Shown here: positions 6,452-54,706 of the stretch, piece by piece
Position numbering within the stretch: position 1 is the stretch's first letter
Layout of the letters: each line of letters starts with the position of its first letter
Source of the DNA: Fragilaria crotonensis
Lineage: Eukaryota > Bacillariophyta > Fragilariophyceae > Fragilariales > Fragilariaceae
Length of the DNA: 64,000 bases
Direction of reading: 5' to 3'
NCBI GenBank assembly: GCA_022925895.1
Contig: JAKSYS010000111.1
Coordinates: forward strand, 54,334-118,333
The notes under the pieces: generated by a model
Database searches by the model: none
Told to the model about the DNA's origin: nothing
Seen by the model: only the letters and a program-made list of their open reading frames with translations
Program-made: the position numbers and the translations under genes

Positions 6452-7548
6452 TCGCTTCCGTGATAGAGCAGTGGATACTTGGACCGTAATTACGTTTTCG
6501 AACAGGGAATTGGTTAGGTCAATGAGGAGATTTGTCGCTCCTGATGTGCTTTCTATGGCTACCTTGTGGTTACCTGAGTGCGTAACCATGAGAGTGTATC
6601 GTGATGTAATGATCACAGTATATCAGACCCATTTGTGCACCAAGAGTGGCATTGCGAGAGCTGGGTGAGGATTCGTGTGAGATCCTGTGTTGTGAGATAC
6701 TTTTTGTTTATGAATGATTTACTCTGGTATCTTGGACGACGGTCAATGGCGGACTCTGAGAGCGCACGACAATGATGACAGGGAGGAATCGTCGCAGACA
6801 TCAGGGTAAAGCGAGCACCTGTACGAGGTTGATAATCTCAATGGCAGTATGAAATGTGTAGCCCCGCACATACACTGAGATGGTAACGCCACGACAGACA
6901 CCTACCATTGCTGCCGTGCAATTTGCTGACCTCCGCCCTAGCATTGACGAGCCTGGGCACACTGACCTGCCAGGACCTGCATGTCTTGCAGGTGAAGCCT
7001 ACATCCTTTAGTTCATCGGCTTTGAGGATGAAGGAAATGGTGTTATGTTTAGTTCAGTCCGGAAACGCCCATTTTGGCGATGAGTTCGGAAAGTCTGCCC
7101 ACGCCAAAAGGACAGAGCGGTCGATTATTGAAACCCAGAGCTCACTTGCTGCTATTTACATAATATTTTTCTTCATTTTTAAGTACTACTATTTAGTAGG
7201 ACAGGTTCTTCCATTGTGGCATCTCTTTCCACAGTTGGAACATGCCCTCAGAAATCAGTGAACGTGAACCTATTTTGTCAGCAAAGTTGCTGTGCTTTCC
7301 GCAGTCCAGCTTGACATTTTGCTACCCATCGGTTCCTTTGTTACACCATCATATAAAGTTGTCTCCAAGCAGAGTGGGAACTTTTCATTCTGAAAGCTGT
7401 TGGATAAAACTGCTAGCTCAAAGCACCTGAACAAGTAGTCAGGACCTTTGTTGAGATGCTTACCACTGTTGGTCTAAACTGCTTCCCAATATGCTGTCTG
7501 TTGTTCAAAACATTGAGGCTTTTTTCCAAGTTTCTGCCAATTGCTCAG
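6452..7548. other. Intergenic, probable mobile-element debris
   Basis: No gene is supported. The stretch at 6908-7260 is open in one frame but shows no recognisable domain. Given the decayed dioxygenase-like gene immediately downstream, this could be the eroded 5' part of the same gene, but I could not align it convincingly. Confidence 0.35.
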
Positions 7549-7990
7549 ATGGATGGAAATGGTGACAGTCTTTGTATGGGGATGCAATTTTGTGACATGA
7601 ACATTTGCCTTGATAATTCATCACACTTTGATGTGAAAGATGCATCACAAAAGGATAATGTATGTATGGAGGAAAAGCCATTTTGAACATCAAACTGTGC
7701 TTTGTCCGTCCTTAGTCAGTATGCAGGAGACTATGTGGTGAAGAATACAACGGGGTTTCCATGAAACATTACCATGGATTGGTAATAGGCTTGGATGGCT
7801 GCTGATTTGTGAGATGACAATGCATATGAGAGCGCTTCTGCCAGATTGGCTGAAGCTGCACAGGTTGGTGCTCACATGATACTTGTGAACAACTGAAGCA
7901 CTCAATTGTTTGGCATGTTGATTGTAAGAAAAGAGAAGATTATTGCAGCTGACCAGAAAGCTCATGCTACTGAGGTTGGTGAAGGGCTGA
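7549..7990 (+). pseudogene. Decayed relative of the transposon-borne dioxygenase-like gene
   Basis: Three blocks in different frames match the intact gene at 14839-17019 in order. Bases 7549-7685 encode a segment with NSSHFDVKDASQ, against NASHFDSNDASQ in the intact gene, including the HxD pair. Bases 7773-7823 encode HG-x(2)-IG-x-DG ... VR-x-QC with two stops, matching HGTAISWDGRLIRHC. About 7885-7950 matches LYGTFTCAKERL as LFGMLIVRKEKI. Stops and frame changes between the blocks leave no functional frame. This shows that a related element once inserted near here. The flanks are too eroded to find its ends. Confidence 0.65.
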
Positions 7991-9015
7991 CATCATGATC
8001 ATAAATGAGGATGAAGTAAAGGACGATGCAATTAATAATTGATATGCTTGCAAATTGCTGACATCAAAACAAAGCATGGAAACAACAATGCTGCTGTCAA
8101 TTAGATGGAAAGTGCCCTAATATAATGGAAGAAAGTTGCATTGTTACATTGTTACCTTCTAGTTTGTGTTTGCCACAGTGTCAACCATGACATCAAGCTA
8201 GCTGTTTTGTGTTGCATTTTGGTACTATGCAGCTACACAGTAGTACCACATACATAGAATACTGTTTGCAACAGAGGAGAAGGCAATAACACATTGACAA
8301 AGGTCAAAGATGTGGTGTTGGAAAATAGGAACAAAATGAGTCCAAATGAATTATGATCAGATACTAGTTGAGTTAAATGTAGATCGTGCCAACTGGGAGA
8401 TGTAATGAAATGATGGAGAAAGATAAACTGTTTTAGAGGGTGAGCAATTTCCTTTTTTGTAGTTCAGGACAGTGCAGTGAACCACGCTGTCCATAAAAAC
8501 AGACAGGCGCTACGGGTCCAATTAGGTTTCACCAATTTGACATCAGCACTCTTCAGCACTTTTGTTGCAGAATTTAACTTGTACGGAATCTTTATCTTTG
8601 ATTTTCTCAGCGCCCACTTTTCAAACCACCTCTTGTGCAAAACTACGTTCTAGATAAGGAACATAAATCTGCGCCACATTTGTTTGAATAGAAATAAAAA
8701 TGATCGTGTCTAGATGTGTATAAAACATGGTACCAGTAGTGGATTTGAGTTAAACTCGCACAAAACTCATCATTTTGATATATTATACAACCACGATGGT
8801 ACGGCACTTTTTCTCCCTGTCATTCCTGTTTCTCTTGTTGTTCTTGCTCTCCTTGCTGCTTTTGTTTCTCTTGTTGCCATTGTTCTGTTTTTGCTCTTGT
8901 TTGCTCTCTATCTGTTGTCATTTTGCTTGAGTTACTAAAGCACCCACCTACTGATTTTTTTGTTACCAACCCCATGTTTCGTTCTCTTTAGGATCATCCA
9001 CAACAAGAAGTACCA
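7991..9015. other. AT-rich degenerate sequence
   Basis: No gene supported. The sequence continues the style of the decayed element upstream: many near-open frames broken by stops. A T/C-rich CTTGTTGTTCTTG-like stretch lies at 8820-8930. It precedes the zinc-finger ORF at 9016. Confidence 0.4.
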
Positions 9016-9930
9016 TTGATGCAGGATCCACATCCAGTGGACCAGACTCTATCTGCTCTCAAGGCTATGTCATGGACTGCTTCTTTGCCTTTCAAAGGTC
9101 ATTTTTGTCATGCAACCGATGATTTCAATGCATCATTGGAAACCGAGTATGACCTCTTTCAGTACACTACCTCCATGTACAAGGGTTCCAAGCATATTGT
9201 TTGGTTCAGTCCATCTCTTTATCCCATCAATGGTGGATTTCGAAAGGATTCAGGAGGCCATAGTCTTATCACTGACTTACTCCAAGCTGCCAAATCTGTT
9301 GGGAATTGTGCCCTTGTTTCCAATGGTTATGTTTTGCGTTCCCCAACCAATGTCGCAGATGTACTACTGACTGACCAACGTGTATTGAAATGCAGTAATT
9401 TCCGCAAGTATTTGTCTGAACAAGGAGGAATTGCAATGTCCTCCACACTGAACCAAAGTACTGGAACCAACTCTTATCGTGTTACCACCTACACTGGAGA
9501 TAAGAAGAATGCCCATGGGTGCAAGAGTTCTGGCATAGCATTGAAGCGGCGCAATTCTACTCTACGTGGTACCTCCTGCACCTGTCGTGTCAAATTCACA
9601 CTCCGAATTGACCACAATAGCTTTTTCCTGGTTTGTGGAATTGGAGATAACCAGCACACTGGTCATCCTCCTCTTCTTGCCAACGAATTAAGGAATCGTA
9701 AACGCTTTCTTGACATATCCACCCTGGAAACTGTCGCTGCAATGAGTGTTGCCAACATCCAGCCCGCCCAAGCTGCTCTGTTTACTAAAACCTGTACAGG
9801 TCAGATTTTTACTCGTGGTCAGATGGCATATGTGCAAGGATTTACAAGAATGGCGAAAGACTTCATGGCTTCCCCCAATGTTAATGCTACCACAACAGCA
9901 TCGGAGTCTTTGCCTCGATGGTTTGGTTAA
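9016..9930 (+). CDS. Mutator-like (FLYWCH/WRKY-GCM type) transposase N-terminal fragment
   Basis: A 304-residue ORF. Around residues 175-220 it carries a CTCRVKF ... H-x-GHPPL pattern, a Cys-x-Cys followed about 25 residues later by an H-x(2)-GH. This resembles the FLYWCH/FAR1-like zinc domains at the N-terminus of Mutator-like (MULE) transposases. Basic residues before the Cys pair and the LANELRNRK-like stretch after it fit DNA binding. No DDE catalytic core or SWIM domain follows, because the frame closes at 9930 and the next long ORF is on the other strand. It is therefore probably a truncated element protein, or the first exon of a spliced one. No terminal repeats could be assigned to it. 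Confidence 0.45.
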   Translation: MMQDPHPVDQTLSALKAMSWTASLPFKGHFCHATDDFNASLETEYDLFQYTTSMYKGSKHIVWFSPSLYPINGGFRKDSGGHSLITDLLQAAKSVGNCALVSNGYVLRSPTNVADVLLTDQRVLKCSNFRKYLSEQGGIAMSSTLNQSTGTNSYRVTTYTGDKKNAHGCKSSGIALKRRNSTLRGTSCTCRVKFTLRIDHNSFFLVCGIGDNQHTGHPPLLANELRNRKRFLDISTLETVAAMSVANIQPAQAALFTKTCTGQIFTRGQMAYVQGFTRMAKDFMASPNVNATTTASESLPRWFG

Positions 9931-10627
9931 CCCTTGTAAGTTTTTCAATAACATACGGACGTGGGATCAAAGTGAATACGTTATCTCCACTCAGTAACAT
10001 CAAACGGGCACCAGACATAGTGTCAATGACTTTAAGATCATTGATTGCAAACAGCATGTGCGCATCACCTATGTGTTTGCGAAGTCTCGTTGAGTTTTCC
10101 ATATCGGCTCCACTATAGAATAAAGGTTTACAACTGTTCTGCAACAGTGCTTTGCCCAGTGAATGCTCATGCGATGACAAAACTTGCATCAAACTATCTA
10201 GCCTTTTCTTCTTCAAATGATTGCGCTTCTTTGCATAAACACTCTTTGGCTTGCCATTTTCTATTGTCTTCTTGTATGCTTCCTGCGTCGTGATGCTTGA
10301 CTTTTTCCTTGATTTATATACATGTTGAAAACCTCGTTTTCCAGTCTTGCCAATGTCATCCCTAGTGGCATCATTCTCCTGTACAACCGTACTCCTCATC
10401 ATGTTTTTTCTGACGTCAAGGTTGGAACTGCTGTTACTGTGCCCCAAGTCACAGATAACAGTGACCTGTTTTGACGTCCTCATGATGGTTTCCTCATTGT
10501 TACATTTGCATTCGACAACCGTACTCCTCATCATGTTTTTTCTGACGTCAAGGTTGGAACTGCTGTTACTGTGCCCCAAGTCACAGATAACAGTGACTTG
10601 TTTGGACGTCCTCATGATGGTTTCCAA
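9887..10627 (-). CDS. ORF of unknown function with internal 44-codon duplication
   Basis: A 246-codon ORF that is not recognised. Its N-terminal third consists of two near-identical copies of a 44-codon block, encoded by a 132-bp tandem duplication (10383-10514 and 10515-10624). After that comes a Lys/Arg-rich region around residues 95-145 (KKRNHLKKKR) that could be nuclear or nucleic-acid binding. Its 3' end overlaps the 3' end of the zinc-finger ORF on the other strand by 44 nt. It may be an exon of a mobile-element protein or a chance frame preserved by the duplication. Confidence 0.3.
   Translation of the reverse strand: METIMRTSKQVTVICDLGHSNSSSNLDVRKNMMRSTVVECKCNNEETIMRTSKQVTVICDLGHSNSSSNLDVRKNMMRSTVVQENDATRDDIGKTGKRGFQHVYKSRKKSSITTQEAYKKTIENGKPKSVYAKKRNHLKKKRLDSLMQVLSSHEHSLGKALLQNSCKPLFYSGADMENSTRLRKHIGDAHMLFAINDLKVIDTMSGARLMLLSGDNVFTLIPRPYVIEKLTRVNQTIEAKTPMLLW
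10383..10624. repeat. 132-bp tandem duplication, about 1.8 copies
   Basis: The block beginning ACAACCGTACTCCTCATCAT at 10383 recurs at 10515. The two copies differ at a few positions (for example GACCTGTTTTGACG versus GACTTGTTTGGACG). The period is a multiple of three, so the minus-strand frame stays open through both copies. Confidence 0.85.
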
Positions 10628-10778
10628 GTTGCTTCTGCCGTTTGATAACCATTCACAACAGCGTTGGGCAAGGCCAGCGAAAGAGGAAAAATGTGATCAG
10701 AGTTTATACTTCTGTCACGTCGCACGTGTCAGAAGTACGTCAGTGCTCAAGGGCAACATCACTCAGAACACTCTTTGA

Positions 10779-11418
10779 AGATTGAAATTCGTACACCAGC
10801 AAATAGTCCCCTTCGTACCGTACTAGTGTTACGGTTCCATTTGTGACTATTTGAAGATCAAAAATCGTACAGCAAATAGTTGTCTGCGTACTGACATACT
10901 GTTACTTGTCCATTCGTGACTATTTGAAGATCAAAATTCGTACACCAAATCGTCGTCTTTGTACTGTCATACTGTTACTTGTCCATTTGTGACTATTTGA
11001 GGATCGAAATTCATACACCAAATAGTCATCTTTGTACTGTACTAGTGTTACGGTTCCATTTGTGACTATTTGAAGATCAAAATTCGTACACCAAATAGTC
11101 ATCTTTGCACCGTACTAGTGTTACGGTTCCATTCGTGACTATTTGAAGATCAAAATTTGTACACCAAATAGTCACCTTCATACTGACATACTGTTACTTG
11201 TCCATTCGTGACTATTTGAAGATCGAAATTCGTACACCAAATAGTCATCTTCATACTGACATACTGTTACTTGTCCATTTGTGACTATTTGAAGATCAAA
11301 ATTTGTACACCAAATAGTCGTCTTTGTACTGACATACTGTTACTTGTCCATTTGTGACTATTTGAAGATCGAAATTTGTGCACCAAATAGTCGTCTTTGT
11401 ACTGTCATACTGTTACTT
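10779..11418. repeat. 73-bp satellite array, left part
   Basis: The anchor GACTATTTG recurs at 10845, 10918, 10991, 11064, 11137, 11210, 11283 and 11356, exactly every 73 bp. Each unit carries GACTATTTG followed about 20 nt later by its reverse complement CAAATAGTC, so each can form a small hairpin. Units differ mainly between two spacer types, CATACTGTTACTTGTCC and TACTAGTGTTACGGTTCC. The array is cut at 11418 by the transposon at 11419. Confidence 0.95.
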
Positions 11419-11456
11419 CATCAGGGAACGCAAATCTCTGGTTTATCCATTTTAAT
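11419..11456 (+). repeat. Left terminal inverted repeat
   Basis: Begins CATCAGGGAACGCAAATCTC. It pairs with the reverse complement of 20220-20257, with six mismatches over 38 bp. The outer nine bases are identical. Confidence 0.9.
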
Positions 11457-11916
11457 GTGATATTTCATTACATAATAATGTGATGACCAGAGTTTTTATA
11501 AAAAATATGTATATTCTACATCATTATGCAAATGCATCTCGTGGGTTGAAGATCCAAATTCTCGGACATTCTGTTTTACATAAATATTTTAATTTCACAT
11601 CATTTTATCCCTAAATACTGCATGTTGCACATATTACTTTGGCAGTTTCAGTTCCATTCCTCTTCTTCTCCATCGTCTCTTCCTTCCATAATCGTGACTT
11701 GTGCAGTGAGTCCTATACTGCGTATACTACATACTCACCGTCTTCTCATTATACTCACGCGCCAATTTTTCCTTTGTGTGATGAGCGTCAAATGCTAGTA
11801 TTACGACTACAAGGAGGCATCATTCTCCCTCATTTTTTTCTCTACGTTGTCGTCTGTTGTATGCTTTATATTCATTGATTCCAACATCATCCCTTCTGCA
11901 TTTCCTTGTTAAGAGA
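11457..11916. promoter_or_regulatory. Subterminal region and probable transposase promoter
   Basis: About 460 bp between the left inverted repeat and the transposase start. It is AT-rich at 11460-11640 and pyrimidine-rich just before the coding region. No discrete promoter motif is assigned. Subterminal binding sites for the transposase would be expected here by analogy, but none is evident by eye. Confidence 0.4.
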
Positions 11917-14837
11917 ATGTTTGTTTGCTACAACATGAACTGCTACTCGCAGTTCCGAACTGAACGCGGTTTACAACAGCATTTGTGGCACAGTTCTGCC
12001 TGCAAGGATTACATGTTGGAACAAAGGGATACTGATGCCGGTATCGAGGCCATTAATAGCACACGGCGTCAAGCATATGGAGTTCAATGCACACGCCTGA
12101 ACTATGAAATGAATGCCGAATTTCCATTGTATGCTCCATATGAAGAATTTCAGTATGATGCACCATCCGATGACTTTGATGGTGACGACACATCGGCACT
12201 CGATGACATGTACGGCCATTTAGATGGCTTTGCCTCATCGATTTCTGGTCTAGAAAATGTCTCTCCCTCTGTTTTACATGGAATCATGGAACGCATGAAA
12301 GCCAGCGATCGCCAAAGCATCCTGAATTTGCAACATGATGTCGAACACAGAAATATTGTGGAACTACTTAAGATTCTGGAGGATGCCCAATGTCCCGACT
12401 ACATGTTGCAGAAAATTTTGCAATGGGCGTACATTGCAAAATTAGATGGCTTTGACTTCAACCCCAAAGCTACAACAAGGAAGGCAAATATTGGGTGGAT
12501 GTACCGGTGTCTGGAACAGTCACATCAACGATTGCCTCATGTGATCTCGACAACTCTCGAGGACCAAGAGGCAGCTCAAGACATTGTGTGTTTTGACTTT
12601 GGTGTTTCTCTTTTGTCGATGCTGCAAGATGATGAACTTATGTTGCCGCAAAACCTTGTGATCAATCGGGACGATCCAACTTCGATGTATCATCCATTGG
12701 ATGGCAAACTTGGGGAGGCAAACAGCGGTCAGCGCTATCGTGACCTATACAATCAATTGATCACTCCAGGAAGAAATCAGCTCCTAGTTCCGATCATTCT
12801 GTACCTTGATGGAACCGCCATTGACAGCAAAGGTCACATCGAAATATGTCCGGTGTCGTTCACAACTTCTTTGTTCACGGAGAAAGTCCGCAGAGACAGT
12901 GGTGCATGGCGTGTCCTGGGTTACGTCCCCGACCTGAACCGCGGACGATCAGGTGCCATGAATCAATTTGCAAACAGCACTTCCGAGGAAGGAAAAGGTA
13001 GAACGACTCGTAATTTTCACAAAGTGATGGATGCCATGATGAGGGGCATGGTCGAAGCGCAAGCCGGCAAAGATTGTCGACTGAAGAAGGTTCCTTTGAA
13101 ACTTTGTGGGAAGTGGATTGTCGTTGATATCGTCTGTCCTCTGCTCTTCGTCATCAACGATGGCAAGCAAGGGGATCAACTTTGTGGCCGCATGAATGGA
13201 CATCACAGTAGTATGAATCGTCATCATCGATCATGCGACTGTCTCTTTGACGATCTTGACAATCCAGATGTTGAGTGCACTTTTCTTGATGTCGACACGA
13301 TCAATGATATCTGTCGCAACGGCTCCGACGACGACCTTCAGGAACTCACGATTTACAAGGTTGATAATGCCTTCAACCGCATTCAGATGGGGCAAAACGC
13401 ACATGGTATCTTTATGTGCGCTGTCATTGATGTCATGCATACTATACAACATGGTATCATCATGTACTGCCTCGAATCGTTCAAGAAAGGGATTAGCAAT
13501 GAATCACTGGCAAAGCTTGATGGAATGGCATTTTCCTTTGACAAGACCTGTCGTCAAACTATACGATCTAGTTTCCCACGGACTGACTTCTCACGTGGAA
13601 TCACAAACCTCTCCCAGGTCGAATGTTCTGAACAGTCCGGCACTCTCTTCCTGCTTGCGGCCCTTACAATGCAAGTTGAAGGATGGCATCTCCTCGAGAG
13701 ACACTTCGCAGATATGGAGGCTGTTTTGGGAACAATCGAATGCCTTCTGTGTTTTGAGGCTTGGCTGGATCAGTTCACATTTTGGGATGTCAACGATACA
13801 ACTGGTGAGGCGGACAAGGCTGAAGCTGCAATTGCTTCTCTTATGCGCCTCATCGTGAAGTATCTTCCGCGATTGAAGGGCAATGGGTGGAAGGTTTCAA
13901 AATTTCATGAGATCAAGCACATCGTCCGCTTTATCGGTGTGTTTGGTGCACCCGTGGCTACAATGCGTCCCGTCCTGAGGAGCATCACAAAGCGCATGCA
14001 AAACGTCCCGGCCGACGTTCACAGAAGGACATGAACACCATCGACCAGCAGTGTGCGCGCAGAATTGCCGACACCATTGTTATTGATACCATGCATGGGT
14101 TGTTCCAAGAAAGAAATGTTCTTGGGAGTGTCGACAAGAACCGCATTGACACTCCCACTTATCGTCCTCCGTATGTTGGCATCAACACTGACGGTGACAA
14201 TCCCGCAATAGAAGAAGGCCGTGGAACAATGTATTGCATCAGGTCGTTTCGAGATCCCGAAAATGGTGATCATTTGGTACGAGACGTCAAGTTCACCACG
14301 CAAACAAGAGGACCCATGCATTTGGAGGACAATCTTTCGATGTTCATCATACAGTACTATGGCTCCTCCGACCTTGATGAACGAGGGGAAGGCAGCATCG
14401 CGTGCTGCACAGAATACCACAAGACTGATTCCATCACGAAGGAAAAGATGATATGCATTCGCTGCCATCCCAATTTCAGAGCCAAGGGATATCCATGGTA
14501 CGACTGGGCACTTATCCAGTTTGAACTTAGTACAGGGGTGAAAAAGGACTTTCCATGTCGTGTAGTGGCTTGTGTTCCAAGACAAACTGACAACGGATTC
14601 TCTTTTGACCTAATCGTACAAAGCTGTTACGAACCAACCGGTCGCGAGTCGTTTCTCTTCACCGAGTGGTCGTTCAGAAAAGACTTCCATGTTGTGAGTG
14701 CAACCGCACTGGTCGCCTTATGCCTCGTTCTTTGCAGCAGTGACTTGAATGGAGATGTCCTTGTCGTAAATGACAGGGACAAATGGCCGTCATACTTCTA
14801 CGAAGCTGCAAACGTAGAATATAACATGCACGACTAA
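11917..14837 (+). CDS. Plavaka/KDZ-like transposase, one frameshift near 13950
   Basis: Start chosen at the ATG at 11917, because the first residues (FVCYNMNCYSQF ... HLWHSSAC) form a C2H2-like finger. The catalytic region includes LVPIILYLDGTAID followed by an ICPVSF and a GYVPDL block (about 12780-12940), the layout of Plavaka-type DDE transposases with Asp in the LDGT motif. Further on come a Cys/His cluster (CGRMNGHHSS ... RSCDC), a DVMHTIQHG motif, and a KFHEIKHIVRFIGVFGAP block. At about 13950 the frame must move by one base. The frame ending at 14034 loses sense there, whereas the other frame continues with RPEEHHKAHAKRPG, a conserved-looking E-x-x-HK segment, and runs to 14837. The C-terminal part contains an IRCHP ... 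GYPWYDWALI block. The intact protein would be about 970 residues. It is presumed to cut and paste the element by recognising the CATCAGGGA ends. Confidence 0.8.
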
Positions 14838-14838
14838 G

Positions 14839-17019
14839 TTAGAACCCAGTTTTCTGCTTCTTCCTTGTTGCAATTTCTCCATCAAGGCTGGATTTCTTGA
14901 CGTTGACGTTTGAAGTCCGTTCGCATGCATCGTCTCGTTTCTCAAGCATCGCTCGTCGCCAATACCATCCCAACCATGTCGTCGGGCATCCATCCTTGGG
15001 AACAGGGCCATCGTCAGGATCAGCATCCTTGATTGTCGGTGCAAATATCTCGTCCTCATCCGAAGGCTCCTTCTCATCGCCTAAAATTCGTGAGCGCTCC
15101 TCATCGGTGTATGCGAATTCCTCCATCTCTTGCATCATCTTCGCCCTCCTACGCCCTGCATTTACAAGGCGTTCCTTTGCGCAGGTGAAGGTGCCATACA
15201 GGTGATTGAGCGATCCTTTCCCGGAACCCACAACATTGGTTCCCACACCGTCAGGTCGTGAAAGCGAAGTACAATGCCGGATTAAACGACCATCCCAGCT
15301 GATGGCCGTGCCGTGACGAAGTTTGATGGCAACACCCTCGAAAGCCCTGCCGTCAACCGAAACTCCATGTAGGTTGGGCATGACAAAATACCAGTTGTCC
15401 GCCACACCTGGCATCTCCTCTGTCCAGACACTGAACCCTTGGGATGCATCGTTGCTGTCGAAGTGCGATGCATTCGCAAGATCAACTGACATGTCGATGG
15501 AGCCTCCAACACGATTGCCCTTGACATCACCGGCCATGACAGCAGCAGGTCTTACACCGGCGTCTCCCTCTGTGTCCTGAATCACAGACAGCACATCAGG
15601 GAAGACAACACTTCCAATTCGTGCAAGTGCATGTACAAATCGTCTCGATAGCTGCGAGGAAACCTTCTTCCCGACAGCATACTCCGCAAGGGTCATGCCA
15701 TCAAGCATGACTCTCGTTCCAATCGGATGCATGGCACCAACATCACCCTGGTCTGACCTCGCATGGCCGGCGCGGACGTGTCTCCTAATGACTGAGTTGT
15801 GCATCGTGATCAGGGGCAGCTCTCCAACAAAGTAGGGCCAGCCCTCGTCACCCCAATACATCTGCTCCAGTTCTGGGGAGGAGGTTTCGCACCATCACAA
15901 CTGACTTTCGATTCATGTACGTTCCAATCGGTGCGATGTCAACAATGATGTCAACATGAGGGGCAGAAACGCCGTCGATGACAAGGCAGTCACCAGGAAT
16001 CTGCTGGTGCAAACAACCTTTAGCATAGTGCCTTCCACCAGGTCTCGCAGACAGTGCAGAAGCCAGTCGTTCGTTGAAAGCTTGGCCACGATCTGCGTTC
16101 GGCCAAGCAGCAATGTTGTGGCCACCAATGACATCGGGCGCCATGCGTGGACCTTCGGAGTCAGAGCACTGACTCGCCAAATATACAAGACGTCTCTGAA
16201 GCTTTGGAACAATACTTGTCGATACCCTCCAAATCGACACTCGCCCATCGGGGACATGGTAATTCCGTTCTTGGGCAAGTCGCTTTACATATCCACCGAC
16301 GCCAAACGAAAATCGACCGTTGTAGGGAGCCACCAGAGCATCCTCTTGAAATCGGAACCAACTTGCATCAAGCTGGATGTGGGCGTTGTTGCAACCCACC
16401 TCCGACCGACGACGCTCACGTGCACAGTAAAGACGCCAGCACCGGGGAGGAAGGCGACCAATGTTCGATATTTGAAGTCCACGTCATCCACGAGATCGCC
16501 ATCACCATACGCTCGCACCATGACAACAGAGTCCGGGTCAGGTTCAGCGACGTCATCGTCATTCCGTGGGGTGACAATTCTACGGTTGAGGATGACGTCC
16601 ATCAGAAAGAATTCCGAAAGGTCGTCGCGCATCCCAGGGCTCGGAAACATCTCATCCATTGAATTGAGCTGACATACCCTGTACTGAGGCCCGAAACCCT
16701 CCTTAAACCATCGAACAGGAGTTGCACACAAACAACCGTCATCGCCAGCCCTTGCCCTTCCTTTTGTCATTGCCTCTTGGAATCGATGCTCCATCAACTC
16801 TCGCCCCGAAGGGATGCACTTCACGGCAACCCTCAATGCCATTGAGTGAGATGGCAGGAAACTCCGCTCCGTACGAACTCGTGGCATGCCAAAACCTCCG
16901 TCATTCTCTTCATCCACGCCCAACACTCTTGGGTTATTTCCCAGGTTCATCACGCTGGATCTGCAAATTGAAGTCCGCCCACGTCTTGAAATTCGAATGT
17001 TGTCGAAGTTCCTGATCAT
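14839..17019 (-). CDS. Transposon accessory gene with 2-oxoglutarate/Fe(II) dioxygenase-like motifs; two frameshifts
   Basis: Three overlapping minus-strand frames (17019-16285, 16399-15848, 15861-14839) read as one protein of about 720 residues, with single-base shifts near 16390 and 15890. In the C-terminal third, HFDSNDASQGFSVW gives an HxD pair (His codon 15465-15463, Asp 15459-15457). About 60 residues later, HGTAISWDGRLIRHC provides a candidate distal His (15276-15274). That spacing and the G-x-x-I-x-W-D strand before the His fit a double-stranded beta-helix dioxygenase. A clear 2-oxoglutarate-binding Arg is less obvious. The tail is acidic, then basic (RKKQK), possibly nuclear. The gene ends 2 bp from the transposase stop, convergent. 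KDZ-type elements in fungi are known to carry TET/JBP-like dioxygenases. Whether this is such a DNA-modifying enzyme is inference. Confidence 0.55.
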
Positions 17020-18216
17020 GCAAAAGTATGTCCAAGCTATATGGCAGGGACAGAACGATGATAATCAGGTGGAAACAAAAGATAGATTTGTTGTCGTCAG
17101 CTATATGGCAGACCTCAACAAAGCAACTGTTGCTTGTGGTTTTCTTCAAATGGCGGGTGCTTTGCTTTGTTGTCGTCAGCTATATGGCAGACTTCAACAA
17201 AGCAACTGTTGTGAAGTGTTCTTGCTTGTAATTGGTGTTGTGATGTGTTGTTGCAGTGAGGAGGACCTGAAATCAACAAAACTTGTGTATTTCGCTGAAA
17301 TACTGAACGACATTTTCGGCGAAGTACAGCCGTGGTACAAAATGTACTACGACTACGTACGAGAAAATCACGGGACGCATGGTCAAAATTACTTAGCAAA
17401 AGTGTTTTACCTGCTACGTAGTTCCTCAGTACCAAATGTACGGCAGCGAAGAAGGTCCAAAGCATACTAGGCTATCCGTAAGAAGATAAACGGTTGGACG
17501 TATTGCTTATTTATACACATATATGAACACTTTAAGGAGTATAACATTGTGCAACGCATATTCCTCTAAGTAAAAATATAGGTCCTTTGCAGAGACATGC
17601 GAGAGCTTGCCAGTAAACTCGCTGTTGTATATTTGACTGCCTATTCATGTACATACATATGCGTTTAGTAGCGTATAAGGTATAAACATGTGTTTTAAAG
17701 TACAATATGAAAATACAACGGTACACAACGATCATATATATTTTGAACGTAGCTACTTAAGAAATTGTATGTTTATCTACGCAGCATTCAAACCAAAGCC
17801 TTCGCCATTTCACCAATGTATATCTAAATATGCGTTGAACAGTTTATTCTGCATTTGTATATAAGTTTTAATTTATATTATATAAATATTAAAGTATATA
17901 AGATACATACATATTTGAAACGAACGAACTTTTTCATTCATAGATTATTGTACAACAACACCACCACAGCATCAGTCCATTCAAAAAGGTCGCCACCACC
18001 ACTAGAAGTCACCACACCAGTTTGATTACTCTTACTCTTTTTGCCTTCTAGTAAGAAGAAGGCGTTGTTGCATGCATTGAAACCTGGATTAAAGAACATA
18101 GCTTTGTTGTGCCATATAGTGTGACATTGCTGAATTCTGCTACGGTTACCAACCGCTGTCGCATAGCTGCAGAAGGTAAGGAGGTGAGGATTTGTGTGTT
18201 GATATCATTGCGGTGC
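17020..18216. other. Divergent intergenic region inside the transposon
   Basis: Separates the minus-strand accessory gene from the plus-strand two-exon gene, so it probably holds both promoters. It contains the 46-bp repeats at 17087-17211 and a strongly AT-rich stretch at 17500-17930. An open frame across 16886-17470 mostly lies antisense to the accessory gene and is not supported. Confidence 0.5.
17035..17211. repeat. Direct repeats upstream of the accessory gene
   Basis: A 46-bp unit containing GTCGTCAGCTATATGGCAGA occurs at 17087-17132 and 17166-17211, 79 bp apart, with one mismatch. Its core AGCTATATGGCAG occurs a third time at 17035-17047, 16 bp upstream of the accessory gene's ATG on the minus strand. 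On that strand the core reads CTGCCATATAGCT, so it could be a repeated promoter or transposase-binding element. Confidence 0.6.
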
Positions 18217-19934
18217 ATGATGTCGTCGTCCCCAGTGCGTCAGAGCACAAGATTACTAAGGGGTAATGCGCAAGGTGCAGCACAAGGGAACGTGAATACT
18301 CGGCGGAACCAGGCAAGACCACAACCATATCCTGATGAGTCACCACGTACAGCAGCAGCAAGAGAACGCGCAGCAGAGTAGCACCTGGAAACAGTCGGAC
18401 AACTCCTGTGAGCACTGAAGCGGCGGCATCGGTTTCAACAGCAGTCATACCATCACCAAATACAAGAGTGCAGCTGCCAGAGAGGCGGCGGCATCGGTTT
18501 CAACAGCAGTCATACCATCACCAAATACAAGAGGTTCAGCTGCCAGAGTGGCGGCGGCGTCGGTTTCAACAGTCATACCATCACCAAACACAAGAGGTGC
18601 AGCTGCTCGTGCCAGTTTGGGTGCTGCTACAGGGATACCAGGTCCATCAGCACCTGATATCCCTGCAGGAGGCCGGCGTTCCCGTGCTGCTCCACATGCC
18701 AGTGCCCGACGTGTTCCTACTACTACTGCTGCGCAAGCTCCAGCACCAGGAGCAGCAGCTGTTGCTACTGCCCGTGCCTATGCAGGCGTAGGCATAAATG
18801 CTGCACCAGCAGCAGTTATGCCTGCAAACCTTGGACAAGATTTTGTTGGTGAGGCGCTTCTTGCTCAACGAGGGGGTGGAGTTGCTATACAAGGTGGCGG
18901 AGCAACAAGGAGGAGGCAAGGCGGACAAGGAGGACAACGCAACACTGTTGCAAGAAGTGCGGATAAGTTTGCAATTCAAAAGTGTGTGAAGGAATATGTG
19001 TTCCCCAAACAAAAGTTTGTGACTGATGGCGACCTAGATTTCAGCAACAACGAAATGTCCATTTGTCGATGCATGGCGGCGGTGCTAGATGTAGACAATC
19101 GTAATATTGAGAACTGGTGGGAGACTGCAAGGAAAACAGTGAAAGAGTCGATATATAGGCACAGGAACAACACAATAAAGAAGATAAAAACAGTATTCCA
19201 AGGTAAGATGGTTGCGAGCGTCCATTTCAACCATTTAATTCTGAACTTCTAACCCTGAGTGTGTGCTGCCTTCTTCTCCTCGATACACAGATATTATACT
19301 GCCAAGGAAAGGCAGATTTAATGAAGTCTTTAGCATGGACCGAATCATAGCATTGAGAAATGACGCTTTGGAGGGTGAAATCTACATGGACTTATTGGAC
19401 GACTTGCTGAAGACTGTGGTTGGAGCCACCAAATTCAAGGAGAATAGGTGCGAGAAACATCTAAGTGAGTGGTTCACTGTCACAGATGAGGCATTCCTCC
19501 TCTTGTGTCTTGAAAATTACTGGCAACAATGGCATTACGAATGGATGGTTAACAGAAATGGACCGCCCGCCGACGAACCTGCACCTGAAGTCATTAACCC
19601 ACGGTACACGGGCAAAACAAGGGGCACCAAGCGAAGTTGGTCAAGGGAAGGAATGGAGCGTTTCAATAACCTGGCTGTATTGGTCTATAACGACAGAAGG
19701 GAAAGGGGCGAAGAGTTCGATCAGTGGTTCCTTCGGGAAATGATACAATCATACGGTGATCGTAATCGAGATGCAGGAAGGGAAAACATCGAGGCAGAAG
19801 TTGTCAACGCAGCACCGACAATTGTGTATAATGAATTCAATATGCAGCTCCTGATCGCCCATGCACAGCACCAACAACTGCAACCACCAGCTCCTGAAGA
19901 AGATGATGTCGACAGAGTTCAAGAAGCCGTGTAG
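18217..19934 (+). CDS. Two-exon transposon gene of unknown function
   Basis: Exon 1 runs from the ATG at 18217 to 19202 and exon 2 from 19291 to 19934. The intron has GTAAG...ACACAG borders, and the phase-1 junction codon reads in frame. The first 200 codons are low-complexity Ala/Pro/Arg/Gly with three copies of a 22-codon repeat. Two single-base shifts (between 18340 and 18380, and near 18468) must be corrected to keep this part open. The conserved-looking domain follows: LDFSNNEMSICRCMAAVL and WWETARKTVKES in exon 1, then KHLSEWFTVTDEAFLLLCLEN and an SREGMERFNNLAVLVYNDRR block in exon 2. This part is helical, Trp-rich and charged. No known fold is recognised. Its position inside the inverted repeats implies a role in the element's life cycle. 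Confidence 0.6.
18417..18610. repeat. Three tandem copies of a 63-66 bp coding repeat
   Basis: Copies begin near 18417, 18483 and 18548 with GCGGCGGC(A/G)TCGGTTTCAA. They encode Ala-rich AASVST(A)VIPSPNTRG-type blocks. Copy 1 has AGAGTGC where copies 2 and 3 have AGAGGT(T/G)C, a one-base loss that breaks the frame. Copy 3 lacks one in-frame codon (GCA). Confidence 0.8.
19203..19290 (+). other. Spliceosomal intron, 88 nt
   Basis: The donor GGTAAG follows CAAG at 19202 and the acceptor CGATACACAG ends at 19290. Joining makes one codon across the junction (g|at) and keeps both flanking frames, which are otherwise in different phases, in register. Confidence 0.8.
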
Positions 19935-20219
19935 GTTCGTGATACCTGGTAGTAGAACTTTAGAAACAATAACGCACAGTACAGCACTGAAACAGATAGC
20001 AACCCCCCAGAATTGGTCGTAGCAGCAAGCTGAAACCGAAGAAGAAGTTGTGAATATTTCTCAATAAACTATGAATAAAACTGAGTACGACTTAACAAAT
20101 ATTTCTCTACATTTTGTACATATTAATTTTGAATTGTAAATAAAAAAGTAGAAACTTGTAAATATGAATATAAGAAACATTCGGTGAAACATCACAGAAA
20201 CATTTACAACGTCTTGTAA

Positions 20220-20257
20220 ATTAAGATGTACAAATCAGAGATTTGCACTCCCTGATG
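20220..20257 (-). repeat. Right terminal inverted repeat
   Basis: Ends ATTTGCACTCCCTGATG. It is the reverse complement of the left terminus, with six mismatches in 38 bp. It is followed by the TT duplication at 20258-20259 and the resumed satellite. Confidence 0.9.
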
Positions 20258-20662
20258 TTGTCCATTCGTGACTATTTGAAGATCGAAATTCGTACACCAG
20301 ATAGTCACCTTTGTACTGACATACTGTTACTTGTCCATTTGTGACTATTTGAAGATCAAAATTAGTACACCAAATAGTCGTCTGCGTACTGTCATACTGT
20401 TACTTGTCCATTTGTGACTATTTGAAGATCAAAATTTGTACACCAAATAGTCGTCATCGTACTGTCATACTGTTACTTGTCCATTCATGACTATTTGAAG
20501 ATCAAAATTAGTACACCAAATAGTCGTCAGCGTACTGTCATACTGTTACTTGTCCATTTGTGACTATTTGAAGATCAAAAATCGTGCACCAAATAGTCGT
20601 CTGCATACTGACATACTGTTACTTGTCAATTCGAGCCTATTTCAAGATCAAAATTTGTACAG
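20258..20662. repeat. 73-bp satellite array, right part
   Basis: Anchors at 20270, 20343, 20416, 20489 and 20562, with a mutated one at 20635, keep the same 73-bp spacing and orientation as the left part. The last unit decays (GAGCCTATTTCAAG), and the array ends near 20662. Confidence 0.95.
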
Positions 20663-45677: not shown

Positions 45678-45866
45678 TGAGCTTAATGTCCCTGATTACA
45701 AAACCAGGGTAGGTAATGAAGGACGAAAGACGAAAGTACGAAGTAATCGATAGAGCAGCACCAATCGAGGGAGTCTCGAGTCTCCCACAAACAGCACGGC
45801 ACTACCGGTAGTACGCCTGGTACTGGTACAAGTACCAAATACATACCTGTACATGTAGAAGGATTT

Positions 45867-46086
45867 TTACAGATAAGACTATAAGCAAATGCGACAGTAT
45901 ACGATATAACTACTGTCACTGACCTTACCGTCTGGTCGCTACGGAGTGTCTAACTGACGGCTCTAGGACAAGTCGTAACCATAGGAAAATACATGTTCTC
46001 GGATGTAGAAATTGCTCACTTGCTTTGCAACTGATCGATTTGAATGGATGTGGTGATGACACATCTGCCTGTTCATTCTTTCGCTA
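45867..46086 (+). repeat. Split direct repeat A1, 220 bp
   Basis: Starts TTACAGATAAGACTATAAGC and ends ATTCTTTCGCTA. It is the same as A2 (54707-54945) except that A1 lacks 19 bp (CCGTACACGTATGGTCGAC) after GTCGTAACCATA. Confidence 0.93.
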
Positions 46087-47348
46087 TGTTCCTTGCAAGT
46101 CACACCATTACCTCACTTGTACCCATGTGTACTTATGGAGTGCAACATCAGTGGTTCCGAAACATCCCAAAAATCAATTATAACAACAAAATTCAAGCGC
46201 GCCGATTTGATTATTCAAAGGACGCCGCCTTTCCAACCATGTATGCGACCCTCGTACGAGGCCCGTAAACATACCCAACATGATCTACCATCTTTACCTG
46301 TCCATGAATGTGCCCGAAGTTGGCCATCATTTGACTTCTGACGTATATGGTCACTAACGACGATCAGTCCGACCCTATGATATATATTTACCCCAGCACT
46401 ACCCATGATCGACACCCGCAGCAGGTTCATCGACATACCAATATTTCCATATCAAACACGAACAAACCGCTCGAAGTCAGCGCAAATTCCCCAGTATGCA
46501 TTTCAATTACCCCAACCCAATCATTGGCACCAAATTCAATGAGTACGGGCTTTATCCTTATCATATATGTAAAGCCCCTCGATCTCAATGCATGCCATGC
46601 ACAACCGCAATCCAAGGCAAAGTTAAAAGCAAGTATACCAAGCTCTACATCACTAAGAGGAAATACAACCGTTTATACGGATACTCAGAATACCAATGTT
46701 GCAGCAATGTTGTCAACAATGTTCAAGAATGTTTCAAGGGCATCACAAATTGATTAGGTGCCTACCGTGTATGCGTACTACTCGGAGTACCTCACTACTT
46801 GTACCAAACAAACTCATATCACCCGCAGTACTAGCGTAGTAGACTAGTCTACTTTCTGAGACATAATCCCAGTCCCAGCCCCAGTCACACTTACCAACTA
46901 CCAGAGCAACCAGTACGAGTACTAGCTATTAACTGACTTGCACTCGAATTATGCAACAATCAAGCTAACTTGAGTAGAGTCACGTACATCGGCCTCCACG
47001 TCAACTCACTACAGCAAACAATTGTATGATGTGTAACCAATGGCCCATATGAAATGTGAAACAACAAAAAGTTTAACTGCGACACATGACGCTCGTCTCA
47101 GTCAACCTTCCACCCATTCCCAGATTGCCACTCCTAACTAATTCCCCAGACACATTTCAAATGGATCAGCTCGGGAACCAACTGTTCAGAATGGTCAATA
47201 ACACGTAAATTTACACTAGCGCAATACTGCTAGTACATCCTGATGCAAAATTTTATGCTGGGCAAATCTGATCACTACTCGGGAATTATTCCTGTTACTC
47301 TCACAATCCGTCGAATTTCTCGATAAGCCATTATTCAAAGACACTACT
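46087..47348. other. Retroelement 5' leader
   Basis: About 1.26 kb between A1 and the first ORF. The open frame at 46347-46757 shows no domain. It could be untranslated leader or a small extra ORF. GTAC palindromes occur at 46780-46810 and 46900-46925. Confidence 0.45.
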
Positions 47349-49849
47349 ATGACGCCTGCTCCAACCGAAACTATCCCACGCAGCCTTACTATGAACGAGC
47401 TTGCCATCCAAGCGGCAACAACGGCAAAGCTTAACAGTTTCGCTACTGCTTACGAGAAGAACCCTGGCCAGGCATCTCGTGTCGAAGCGAGCTTTGCCAA
47501 AACCTGTTCCGCTGTTACTAAGTTCGCCCAAATCTGCGACTCCGGCCTCGTCAAGCAACTCTTCTTCGTCCAGCCAAACTTCAAAATGGCCATCATCTCC
47601 TGTCCTTTTGCTACCCAAAATTCCCTCGGTGACGACGTCATTGCAGGTAGCCTTGGTGATGCACTCGATATCATCTGCCCTGTCACAATCCGCATGAAAG
47701 ATGCCAGGGGCGAAGTCATCAGTGTCTGTTCGTCTCGAGTCAACGCCGAGAAATACAAACTCGCCATCTCCACTTCCAACCCTCTCGACGAAGAAGGTCC
47801 CGAACTCCCAGCTGACGCCGTCGAAATGCCGGAACCTGCAGGCCCAGATCGCATCAGAGTTGACATCACCGACCCTACAAAACAACCATGTATTGTTGCC
47901 ATCCCTAAAGTCTTTCCATTTACGCCAGGCTACTCGATCCCAACCAACCCCCCAGTATCTGTCACAAACACCGCAAGTCTAACCAACATCGACCCTGACA
48001 GTCTACTCCAAACCTGGTATGAAACGATCAGGTACGGTTGTCTCAACCTTGATAATCACTCCATTCACGCCAGAGACACCCTGTTTGTCTATGAAAATCT
48101 TGAGAAGAACGAACTCATTGCAAACAACCGCAACCTCGCGTCTCGTTGCACGGTCGGGCTTGAATTCCCAACTTACGACGACCCACTTTATACCGAAGTC
48201 ATCGAGGTTCTCAGAAGCGAAAAAGACAAGGCCAACCTTGCATTTGGAACTCAACTCCTTGCTAACCAACCATTGTTCCGAGCTTCTACTCAAACTCCTA
48301 ACATTCAGCCTCAACCTTCGCAAGCGAGTAATGCTCCAACTATGGAACATCATGGCATGGCCGCCCTAATTGACGGTTTCGCCAAAGCCATCAACGATTC
48401 AGCATCTAAATCTCTGACAGGATCTGAGCGCGAGAGAGCCAGAGAAGCTGCCGAAGTCGCCCAATTCTACTCGATCTTATTCGCCTCAACAATCGACATC
48501 GTCCAAGACGACGGAACAACCGCTACCTCTATCCTACCTGCAACAATCCATCCTCTCTTCACTCCCGTATTGATTGCCAACAAAAATTCCAAAGCAACGA
48601 AAGCTTTGAAAGATGCGGTCGAAGCTCAAGCCGCTGAGCTAAGCCAGAGCAACGACAAGTTTGCATCTGCGGCAAACCTCAACCCGCGAATGTTTGACCA
48701 ACCCCTCACAGCTGCGTTGCGCGCTGGCCAATGGGAACACAAGCACACAGTACTCAACCCGACAGGCATTACCTCCAATTTTGGGTTGTACCATCTTGCA
48801 CCACCGCGAACAAACAGTGCTATTTACCGAAACCGGCAAGAAGGCGAAACCTTGTTGGTCCAGCAGGAACAAGTCGAGGAAGACAAGAGTCGCGTTGGTG
48901 CTAAGATCACTGACCTGTATTTCAATGGTCGTATGGGAAATCTTGCCGAACTCAACGAGATGATCGGAAACTTCTACGCACTCATGAACGTAATCATCGA
49001 ATTCGATGCACGTCGACCACCAATTCTGTGGCAGGAAATTGTGAATTTGACAAAATTCTCCGAACAGAAGAAGGCCGGAGTTGGTGCGATATCCATCGAT
49101 ATGCAAGAGAAATCCTGTTTAATGTTGTGCAGGAAATCCAGTCAACCATTGCAGGATTTGTCAACGAAGCGAGGAAGCAAGGATATAAGAAACTCGTGTC
49201 GACCGGTACTGGAATCTCTTCAATGATATTTGCCGATGCCTTGCTCCAGTCTAACCACATTCTCAACAACTTTACCAGTACTGTCCTCTCGATGGGGGCG
49301 GGAACGTACAAAGAATCGACTCTCCTTTTCAAAGTATTCAACCCGGAACCAGAGAAACGGAAAAGAGATAACGCGGAGACCGGCAATACCAGCCACTACC
49401 CTGCCAACCAAGCATCCAACCGACAGCGGACAGCGGGAGGCGACAGATCAACTCATCGCACCAACACGGTAACGCCTTCAGGCTCACCAAGCTCATCTGC
49501 ACCGACCACCGCCACGGGACCACCCGGCAAAGTGGTTTTCATGCATGAAGGAAGTCCACCACCTATGCGACTACCGCACCCAGGAGCCATTTTCCCCCAT
49601 GCAACCCGTCCAAGTAACCTGACCCTGATGTGCTGTCGAAGTGCCTACTCAGGGCGTGACTGCGTCACACCGACTTGTACATTTTATCACTTCCCGAACC
49701 AATTGTCCAGCATCCCACGCGAACTCAAAGACAAACTCAAAGCATGGGTCACTAGCACCCCATTGGTCCAATGGCATGGTGATGCAGTAAATTGGGCAAC
49801 ACCAGGTACAGTGCCAGCTCAACCCCGCACTAGTAACACAACGCGATGA
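47349..49849 (+). CDS. ORF1, Gag-like protein with C-terminal zinc motif; one frame change
   Basis: The ATG at 47349 opens a 625-codon frame. A second frame continues from about 49050-49110 to the stop at 49847-49849, so one base appears lost between them (or a -1 shift occurs). Combined length is about 830 residues. The N-terminal two thirds are helical and Ala/Asn/Thr-rich without a recognised domain. The second frame contains EILFNVVQEIQSTIAGFV, then a disordered Ser/Thr/Pro region, and ends with C-C-x(7)-C-x(4)-C-x(3)-H (CCRSAYSGRDCVTPTCTFYH), a zinc-knuckle-like motif fitting RNA binding by a Gag. Position as first ORF agrees with Ngaro/PAT organisation. Confidence 0.65.
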
Positions 49850-52800
49850 ACTGTGCGCAATTTCACTCACACACACAACGTAAATCTCTACCGTCATGCA
49901 CGCATACTATCGTGGTCATGGTACTTGTACTTAATTCCCGATACGTAACATGTCAAGTGCAAACGTATTTCCCAACCTTTAGGCTCAAAATACCCCTAAC
50001 CAGTAGCACCCGCCTCTTATCATCAGGCAGCGCGACAAAACCAGTCCAAGATATTATTATGGCAACACCAGAACCGAGCCACGTAAGTGTCACCAGTCCA
50101 ATGCCTACAGGACATGACCCTCGCAACCTTTCGGTCGCCGGCAGTACCGCTACAAATGTCAACACAAACATGCTATGCCACCCAACCCCACAAAATGTAT
50201 CGATTGTAGAACAGCCACCCTCGGATGAAGCCTACAACATGCCAACCTCATCCGCCTACCTTCGCAGTATAGCGGCCGCACCTCCCGTAACCGATACCAA
50301 CAGTCCAACAAATAAGCGCCTATGTGACGATAACTGGACAAAAGGGAACCTATCCTCACAACGGCTAGATAAGTTTGCGGCAACTACCCTTCCATCATCC
50401 GTCCAAATCCAACTTGCACAAACCTTCGGTAAGGATTCTATCAATCATTCGTTCTATGCTGAAAAGTGTTTTCGCCATATTCTATTACCTCTATTTAAGA
50501 GCGGTTTTCTATCTTGCAGAGCAACCAAAACACTGGAAAAAGCATGTCGCCGCACTCGGCAACTCCAGCAACTACGGAAGCGGTACCAGCATGTCGACTT
50601 CCGCCCTTTGCAAGGGTTCCAACACGACTGGGAAGCAACTTCATCCATCAGAAACGATTGGAAAGCTATGACAACAGCTTGCTTGATGCACTTCGATGGG
50701 GACGTCGCAACTATGGTCCGATGGATAGGGGGACCTCACGTTAACGCGCACCTCAACGTCACGTCAATCCTGACAACACTGCAGCCAATTGTGGATCCTG
50801 ACATCTACAAAGACGTCGAGCGAATCCTTTCTCACGGAGCGCCAGCCCTTTGCAACGCATCCGCTAGCGAAGCGAACTTCCAAGCGTACCGCAAGTACGG
50901 AAACCACCAGTCCGTCACCCGACACCAACCAATATTTGAGTCAACAATCGTTAAGCAGAGCAAGCGCGGTCTTACCCTAATCATGGACCCACAGATGATC
51001 AACTTTGCACTAAATGCTCACTTGTCACCTCAGGGTCTTGTCGACATCCTCCACAAGCGGCGAAAACCAAGACCTCTCTCCGACAGTAGTTTCCGACCCC
51101 ACCCTGGCGCAACCGCTATTAACGATTGGACACACAAGGACAATGAACCGAAACTCCACTTTGCCAACTCGTTCAACAATTTCTGTGTATGGCAATGGAA
51201 CCTTGCCATTACCTATCCGGACGCGGATCGTCACACAGGGGATGATGACGTCCAATGTGCTTTCCCAAGGATAAAGTATAACCCCCAACTGGTCGCTATG
51301 CACAGTGCTATTTCTAATAACACGCTGATGATGAACACCGGCTTAACCTTCGGCGATAACACCAGCCCATCCAACTGGGAACCTATTGCAAGAGCAAGGC
51401 AACAGTTAGCTCAACACCTTTGGCGTGACGGCGACGCAATCATTGCGAGAGCAGCAAAATACCTACCTCCATTCAATTTCGCAACTCCCGCAACACCAGC
51501 GGAGCGTGAAGCGTTTGCGAAAGCGATCCCTGATGATATCAACACAGGCGTACTCGATAAATATGGCAACCGTCGCCCACCAACATATGATCATCACGTC
51601 GACGATAATATGTATGCTGACATCACCGAATTACTTCCGAGAGCAGCATCCGCAAGCGTGATAGCGCTCTACGAAATTATCGGTTATCCCAGCGGTAAAA
51701 TTCCCGATCCAATATCTTGGGATAAATTTGAAACAACTCATGGGCATATCCGTCGCGTAGTTGGGTGGGAATTTAACACTCGTGATTTAACGTTCGCACT
51801 GCCTGCAGACAAGCGTCAAACAATCGCTGAGCTTTTAGCAACATGGCTGACGCGAACACAGTGCACACTCCTCCAAGCTGCAGAACTTCACGGAACCTTA
51901 GCGGACGCGTCCCGAGCGTACCGCCCAGGGAAAGCTCTATTCTTTGGATTTCAAAATGCTCTAAGAAGAGCAATCCAGACCAGGTATCACCAAGTGAAAG
52001 GTTTCTACAACCGATCCAAGAAAACCAAGCTTCTCTCCGCCCAGCTACCCAAGGAACTCCACAACCGACTGGATAGCCTCATTGCTCGCGACATTGCAGC
52101 GCTTCTTTGGCGCACGAAAACCACTATTCCCATCCCACAATCTGTCACATTTGAACTGAAACAACTGCACCAGCACCTTGCGGATATAACGCGACCATGG
52201 TCAATCAGTATCGGCCACGTGGTTCCCCGTGTCCCGCAGTTTACAAGCCTGGGAGATGCCTGCAGAATGGGAGGAGGTGCCTTTTGCCATGAATTGAAAT
52301 TTTGGTTTGACATTGTCTGGTCACCCCAAACGCGAGCATTATTCGACGAAGGCCGCATACACATCAACCTACTTGAATTCACTGTTGTCCTTCTGCAGCT
52401 AGCTGCAGCAATTGTGCGATCCGAAGACACCCCAGCCATTACATCCATGCCACCACTGTCCAAACTGCTGATCCGAACTGATAACTCACCCTCGCGCAAT
52501 TGGGCTCACAAAGTATCGGCTCGCTCCGAGCGAGGCCAACTATTTGTCAGTCTATATGCCTCGCTCCTCGAGCGAACTGAACTTACTATCGCCTGCAACC
52601 ATGTGGCAGGCGTTGACAACACCCTCGCTGACTTTATATCGCGCCCCCCTGAATCTATCTCACATCCTGATCGTTGCAAACAGATTTTTCGCGAGGAGCC
52701 GAGGCTCAAGTCTTATCACTTTTTCCACCCAAGTGTAGAGCTCTTATCCTGCCTGGTGTCCAGGCTGTACACCGAACGTTGGCAGGAAAGCCCGCCTCTA

Positions 52801-54465: not shown

Positions 54466-54706
54466 CAGGCCTGTGCTAAGTGAACCATCCAGGAGCTTGT
54501 AGACTCCTAGAATTCTAACGTCATAACCACTGCGTTTTAGCCCACTATGCCACTGTAGAGACCTACTAGCACTAGCGCACTCGTCACCGTGGCATTTTCG
54601 GTATTACACGTAGTAGCCATCGACGTAGAATCATTCACTAGCACTTTACCATATCGAGTGCCTGTAGCAGTACAGCTGAGGCGACTTCTGGGAATCCTGT
54701 GGATTC
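54466..54706 (+). repeat. Split direct repeat B1, 241 bp
   Basis: Starts CAGGCCTGTGCTAAGTGAAC and ends ATCCTGTGGATTC. Repeated without visible change as B2 at 54971-55211. Confidence 0.93.

Follow-up and report, generated by a model that had tools for sequence, protein, structure and literature searches.

The window analysed here is a stretch of 64,000 nucleotides from the diatom Fragilaria crotonensis (assembly GCA_022925895.1, contig JAKSYS010000111.1, positions 54,334 to 118,333 of the forward strand; coordinates below count from its first base). Positions 11419-20257 are occupied by a single inserted copy of a DNA transposon, 8.8 kb in length and complete at both ends, an assignment that we regard as practically certain. 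Three genes lie inside it: a putative transposase gene on the plus strand (gene 1, 11917-14837), an oxygenase-like gene on the minus strand (gene 2, 17019 to 14839), and a plus-strand gene of two exons (gene 3, 18217-19934). An initial annotation of the stretch had described a complete 8.8 kb element with both termini, a TT duplication and three internal genes, and the tests reported below agree with it on all of these.

Ends and insertion site

The element is bounded by inverted arms of 38 nt each, on the left at 11419-11456 (plus strand) with CATCAGGGA outermost and on the right at 20220-20257 (minus strand) with TCCCTGATG outermost. The arms are identical at 32 of 38 positions; their outer 9 bases agree fully (CATCAGGGA..TCCCTGATG), and GCAAATCTCTG is another block in which the two arms are the same. 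An origin of the inverted ends by chance was rejected, as the top score was 26/38 when one arm was shuffled 200,000 times and 24/38 among 300,000 random pairs of 38-mers drawn from the window. Reduced to 22 bases, of which 20 are fixed, and with no more than 3 mismatches allowed, the end occurs at only two sites in the 64-kb window, which are the two ends of the element, and two matches were reached in none of 100 shuffles. A second copy within the window was likewise sought and rejected, since blastn of the element against the flanks gave none at E 1e-3.

The element interrupts a tandem array of a 73-bp satellite, which extends over 10770-11418 to the left of the element and 20258-20661 to its right. 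Because its units show the uninterrupted sequence, the array itself supplies the empty site. The common empty unit reads CTGTTAC-TT-GTC; among the 13 unit sites besides the junction, nine have CTGTTACTTGTCC, one has CTGTTACTTGTCA and three have the variant GTGTTACGGTTCC, and CTGTTACTTGTC is present in 10 of the 13. At the junction TT stands on either side of the element (11417-11418 and 20258-20259), and joining the flanks restores the common unit. Therefore, the target-site duplication is 2 bp, TT. Beside this satellite, at 10383-10625, there is also a 132-bp unit in 1.8 copies with 98 percent identity.

The three genes

Reading frames were assessed with a codon model whose training set was 12 other open reading frames (ORFs) of the window, some of which come from a retroelement at 45861-55211. 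Out of six frames, the assigned one scores highest in both transposase ORFs, in the three ORFs of gene 2 (A, B and C) and in both main exon frames of gene 3, which supports the three genes of the initial annotation. The C-terminal transposase frame wins only narrowly (0.107 vs 0.100), and for the small N-terminal ORF of gene 3 (18217-18378) the assigned frame is not the best. The gene structures first drawn have nevertheless to be amended: the transposase is coded in two frames and the minus-strand gene in three, and gene 3 changes frame within its N-terminal repeats.

The N-terminal part of the transposase (11917-14034, plus strand, 705 codons) starts with MFVCYNMNCYSQFRTERGLQQHLWHSSAC, which has the look of a C2H2-type finger and for which the Pfam model zf-C2H2_8 gives E 0.12, under the cut-off of the model. 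The catalytic residues were assigned by eye. The probable first catalytic D (12808-12810) lies in LYLDGTAID (12799-12825), and a probable second D lies in the region VINDGKQGDQLCGR (13150-13191). They are followed by RSCDC (13228-13242), a C(1)C pair in place of the C(2)C of the CMCT clade, and by DVMHTIQHG (13429-13455), an H(3)H motif as in that clade. The C-terminal part (13942-14837) is read in another frame, entered between 13942 and 13971, and RPEEHHK at 13971 contains the probable catalytic E. This second frame gives RPEEHHKAHAKRPGRRSQK / YNASRPEEHHKAHAKRPGRRSQKDMNTIDQQCARR and runs directly into the ORF 14031-14837; we take the block to resemble the part of CACTA and Plavaka transposases that holds the catalytic E. 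The motif seems to run on unbroken through the change of frame, from which we infer that the change is a frame lesion (or an error of assembly) and not an intron; with its transposase frame broken the copy is probably non-autonomous. The transposase has no relevant match in the PDB and no significant one in Pfam, PHROGs or NCBIfam.

Gene 2 consists of three successive frames on the minus strand, namely ORF A (16285-17019, the N-terminal part), ORF B (15848-16399) and ORF C (14839-15861). Many GT-AG options for joining them were enumerated and none was singled out, so that the joins may be small introns or frame lesions. ORF C contains the tripeptide HFD, in which H133 is at 15463-15465 and D135 at 15457-15459, and a distal H196 (15274-15276) within HGTAISWDGRLIRHCTS, 63 residues past H133. 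The motifs run in the order HxD, W-Y-F-x-x-P and then HGTAISWDGRLIRH. The succession of HxD, a W-Y-F-x-x-P strand and G-x-x-I-x-W-D-G-R-x-I-x-H is the usual order in Fe(II)/2-oxoglutarate (Fe/2OG) oxygenases. From these motifs the product is quite likely to be an oxygenase of this kind. The metal-site features of TET/JBP enzymes (HxD/E and a distal H) are present in ORF C at the motif level only, and membership of the product in TET/JBP is not demonstrated. Against the PDB, ORF C found only two fimbrial chains (E 0.16-0.19), which are irrelevant.

Two further features touch gene 2. A plus-strand ORF of 194 codons (16886-17467) overlaps ORF A inside the element; its own frame is the best of six, and it has no Pfam match. 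Between genes 2 and 3, directly upstream of gene 2, repeats of about 40 nt (TTTGTTGTCGTCAGCTATATGGCAGA...) at 17087-17201 are possibly regulatory.

In gene 3, first described as coding for a Trp-rich two-exon protein, an intron of 88 nt (GTAAGA...ACACAG, 19203-19290) links the two frames. Exon 1 (18217-19202) has its main frame from about 18548, and exon 2 (19291-19934), in frame after the intron, is Trp-rich and charged. A 65-bp tandem repeat (18420-18606) forces frame changes in the N-terminal part, and the ATG-led piece at 18217-18378 sits in yet another frame. The protein has no family match in Pfam, PHROGs or NCBIfam; it matches a SAM model of phage integrases weakly (E 0.01-0.03), under the cut-off. 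For the genes of the element in general, what PHROGs returned was weak (E 0.055 to 0.24), and the families concerned have no known function.

A decayed relative of gene 2 and CpG depletion

A tblastn search of the remainder of the window with ORF C revealed, outside the element on the plus strand at 7420-7800, a relative of the oxygenase-like gene that is decayed and poor in CpG. The main match (7420-7680) has E 9e-9 and 34 percent identity over 87 residues, and a second piece (7737-7799) follows in the correct order in a different frame; the lowest E from 301 shuffled or reversed queries was 1e-3. The relative retains SHFDxxDASQ, with its HxD, and GVxxKxxHGxxIxxDG. It lies 3.6 kb to the left of the element, and many stop codons come after it. 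Nothing there corresponds to ORFs A and B, no relative of the transposase was found in the element flanks by the window search, and the 22-base end of the element is not present near it.

About 1.2 kb downstream of the relative there is an ORF of 304 codons (9016-9930) with the pattern C.C...H..H, which to us resembles the beginning of a transposase of MULE type (the FAR1/MULE zinc domain); it has no Pfam match. The ratio of observed to expected CpG (o/e) is 0.48 over 8980-9935, which spans this ORF.

The CpG o/e is 0.92 over the window, 1.01, 1.00 and 0.89 in three blocks of host genes and 0.87 in the element, and it falls to 0.46 over 6460-8700 and to 0.13 over 7420-7800. The latter segment holds 2 CpG, a count as low as which was reached in none of 20,000 shuffles, and 6460-8700 holds 46 CpG where 99.4 are expected, the lowest of 2,000 shuffles being 71. 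The TpG/CpA ratio is raised to 1.47 over 6460-8700 and to 1.62 over 7420-7800, as compared with 1.22 in the window and 1.33 in the element. The simplest reading of this depletion is that methylated CpG has been deaminated in old transposon remnants, and through this reading a counter-silencing role of the oxygenase becomes testable at the locus. The pattern is compatible with methylation of transposons by the host and with a counter-silencing oxygenase carried by the element, and is not proof of either. In another diatom, Phaeodactylum, methylation is described as limited to transposons (PMC12344493), and where DNMT5a is lost, methylation is reported to be lost as well and young transposons to be overexpressed (PMC9998398).

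Only one other CpG trough in the window is equally deep, at 55251-56750 (o/e 0.16-0.44 in 1-kb windows), and six-frame reading of 55001-57900 around it gave nothing recognisable.

Affinities and possible role of the element

The element resembles CACTA/EnSpm elements in its CMCT transposase motifs, its short duplication and its inverted ends. CACTA/EnSpm elements also carry more than one gene, as this element does. It differs from them in having CATCA rather than CAC at its ends and a duplication of 2 bp rather than 3.

The comparison with Plavaka elements was made against their published description (Kojima 2025, PMC12730594). PlavakaB elements have the ends CATCA..TGATG and duplications of 2 or 3 bp, and the transposases of the CMCT clade share C(2)C and H(3-4)H between the second D and the E (PMC12730594). 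In the present element the ends are CATCA..TGATG, the duplication is short (2 bp), the H(3)H of DVMHTIQHG (13429) precedes RPEEHHK (13971), and the second gene is of oxygenase type, as in those PlavakaB elements that carry a TET gene. It differs from PlavakaB in its C(1)C (RSCDC at 13228) in place of C(2)C. From ends and motifs the element is very probably CMCT/Plavaka-like; the placement rests on these and not on a tree, because three profile libraries recognise none of its genes. It is possible, if distinctly unlikely, that the element represents a separate new CMCT lineage with CATCA ends common with PlavakaB by convergence: the C(1)C pair and the lack of any profile match would suit such a lineage, but the ends together with a 2-bp duplication are the signature of PlavakaB.

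Of the label Plavaka/KDZ-like in the initial annotation, the first half is thus kept on the strength of ends, duplication length and transposase motifs, and the second is dropped. KDZ elements (Kyakuja, Dileera, Zisupton) are also DNA transposons and are well known to carry TET/JBP genes in fungi, but their duplications are of 7-8 bp, which the 2 bp found here contradicts, and their transposase is described as having no similarity to that of Plavaka, which has been moved away from KDZ to a place next to EnSpm/Transib (PMC12730594). The H(3)H of the element, moreover, is a CMCT motif, and its identity as a KDZ element is very improbable.

The same source characterises TET-carrying Plavaka elements in two mushrooms, Agaricus bisporus and Gymnopus confluens, all of them PlavakaB, and the complete TET-carrying transposons found in the literature are fungal (PMC12730594). 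The present element differs from these in its diatom host and in its third gene without family match, and also in its HxD, the mushroom oxygenase (PE type) having HxE. The PE-type oxygenase was recognised mainly by structure, with weak sequence scores (HHpred E 1.4 to CMD1), and the role of the TET gene in fungal transposons is stated there as proposed only (PMC12730594). As for Plavaka-type transposases outside fungi, they are reported from giant repeats of Amoebidium, which methylation blocks helped to delimit and which form clusters of up to 50 kb with tyrosine recombinases (PMC11244446), and EnSpm-Plavaka elements are reported from the green alga Auxenochlorella (PMC12636532). The word "dioxygenase" does not occur in the main text of either. 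Among the matches listed, no Plavaka element or TET-type transposon in diatoms was found in the open-access literature; in one paper that names Plavaka (PMC9674265), diatoms come up in the title of a cited work.

We consider that the element is a cut-and-paste transposon of the CMCT clade, nearest by its ends to fungal PlavakaB, with an oxygenase that would act on methylated bases against silencing; the odds of this reading as a whole are about even (roughly 0.5). The structure of the element is observed, and analogy stands behind its movement and the functions of its proteins. The transposase, as an EnSpm/Transib/RAG1-like DDE enzyme, would bind the 38-bp CATCAGGGA ends, cut there and excise the element, which would then insert at a 2-bp target, here in the satellite array. 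The oxygenase-like protein is most likely an Fe(II)/2-oxoglutarate enzyme, which would oxidise methylated bases within the element or close to it; such oxidation, if the fungal transposons with a TET gene are a guide, would counter silencing by the host and keep the element expressed. That the oxygenase acts on DNA bases in this way is, taken by itself, a tentative proposition, slightly short of an even chance. Gene 3 most likely specifies an accessory DNA-binding protein like the second proteins of related elements, which is a guess, and the present copy, with its broken transposase gene, would need the proteins of other copies to move.

Several results weigh against this reading. Profile searches, which the initial annotation had suggested, gave no support, as none of the three genes reaches significance in Pfam, PHROGs or NCBIfam. 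With E values up to 1 accepted for ORF C and up to 10 for its core, Pfam gave no match, and neither the Pfam model Tet_JBP (PF12851) nor the TET/JBP members of the PDB match the oxygenase-like protein. AlphaFold runs with 1 and 3 sequences gave a mean predicted local distance difference test score of 33 and 30, and are unusable. When the oxygenase core was aligned by hhalign to 30 loci of one other 2OG family (PF13640), the probability was 0.44 percent and the score did not exceed chance, 2 of 60 shuffles being higher, a negative that is weak because the 30 rows were chosen by the regular expression H.D...H...R and not individually checked. By eye, no obvious 2OG-binding Arg follows the distal H of ORF C. 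The C(1)C pair of the transposase, whether lesion or variant, departs from the published C(2)C, and the element is known from one copy only within the window. CpG depletion, furthermore, may arise in other ways. Inside the element, gene 3 shows a mild depletion of its own (0.69), the 1-kb windows of the element at about 18.0-19.5 kb (0.56-0.64) are among the lower CpG values of the window, and the TpG/CpA of the element is slightly raised; from the depletion in gene 3 and the raised TpG/CpA, the element may therefore have been methylated too.

These results bear on two further alternatives. It is unlikely that gene 2 is not an oxygenase at all, its HxD and distal H being chance features of a transposon accessory protein: the gene has neither profile nor fold support, but the HxD and HG..I..DG blocks are both kept, in the same order, in the decayed relative, and Fe/2OG enzymes usually have such a layout. 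The term dioxygenase-like in the initial annotation is accordingly plausible from the HxD...H layout and the relative, and its TET/JBP component finds no match by profile, structure or sequence. Rather improbable, too, is a Plavaka-like transposon whose 2OG oxygenase acts on protein or RNA (e.g. chromatin or the transposase) instead of DNA bases. The failure of ORF C and its core to match TET/JBP in Pfam would be expected under such an activity. In TET enzymes the metal-histidine spacing is about 50 residues, and the 63 residues of ORF C are longer. On the other side, the oxygenases of such elements in fungi are of TET/JBP type and some are barely detectable by sequence (PMC12730594).

A wider proposal, which is rather doubtful at present, is that a Plavaka-type lineage of stramenopiles (diatoms) possesses its own undescribed class of HxD base-modifying oxygenase, used against CpG methylation by the host and gained independently of the PU, AG and PE types of fungi. 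Such an oxygenase would also pass from one transposon superfamily to another in diatoms, as fungal TET/JBP genes do. The position of the decayed copy near a MULE-like ORF and away from Plavaka ends would mean such movement. If a diatom counterpart of the fungal systems is real, the arms race between transposons and methylation would be old or have arisen more than once, and there would be a new enzyme family to assay, in a host group that is transformable.

Relatives were also sought in collections of viral and prokaryote contigs, by protein and by degenerate DNA motif. The viral contigs yielded no relative of the element by either approach: one DNA motif scan gave two loci with stop codons in the pattern frames, for which the tblastn matches did not go below E 0.11, one protein scan gave 17 pattern matches, none of which was confirmed, and the other scans matched nothing. 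A motif scan of the genome contigs gave 6 loci, and none of the 8 motif loci (6 in genome contigs and 2 in viral contigs) matches any of seven element ORFs at E 0.01. The best tblastn matches, E 7 for ORF C in phages and E 2 for its core in plasmids, are at the chance level. PF12851 was found in prokaryote genomes in 0 of 2 and 0 of 398, and likewise in none of 14 control genomes.

Elsewhere in the window, 45861-55211 is an intact-looking retroelement with split direct repeats that are 99-100 percent identical, the pieces of repeat A being at 45861-46086 and 54701-54945 and those of repeat B at 54466-54706 and 54971-55211. Its ORFs 47349-49226 and 49846-52863 have no Pfam match at E 0.01, and 52674-53915 matches the tyrosine-recombinase model PF00589 weakly (E 9e-4), under the cut-off. 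From the layout of the repeats, we take this retroelement to be of the DIRS order (Ngaro-like).

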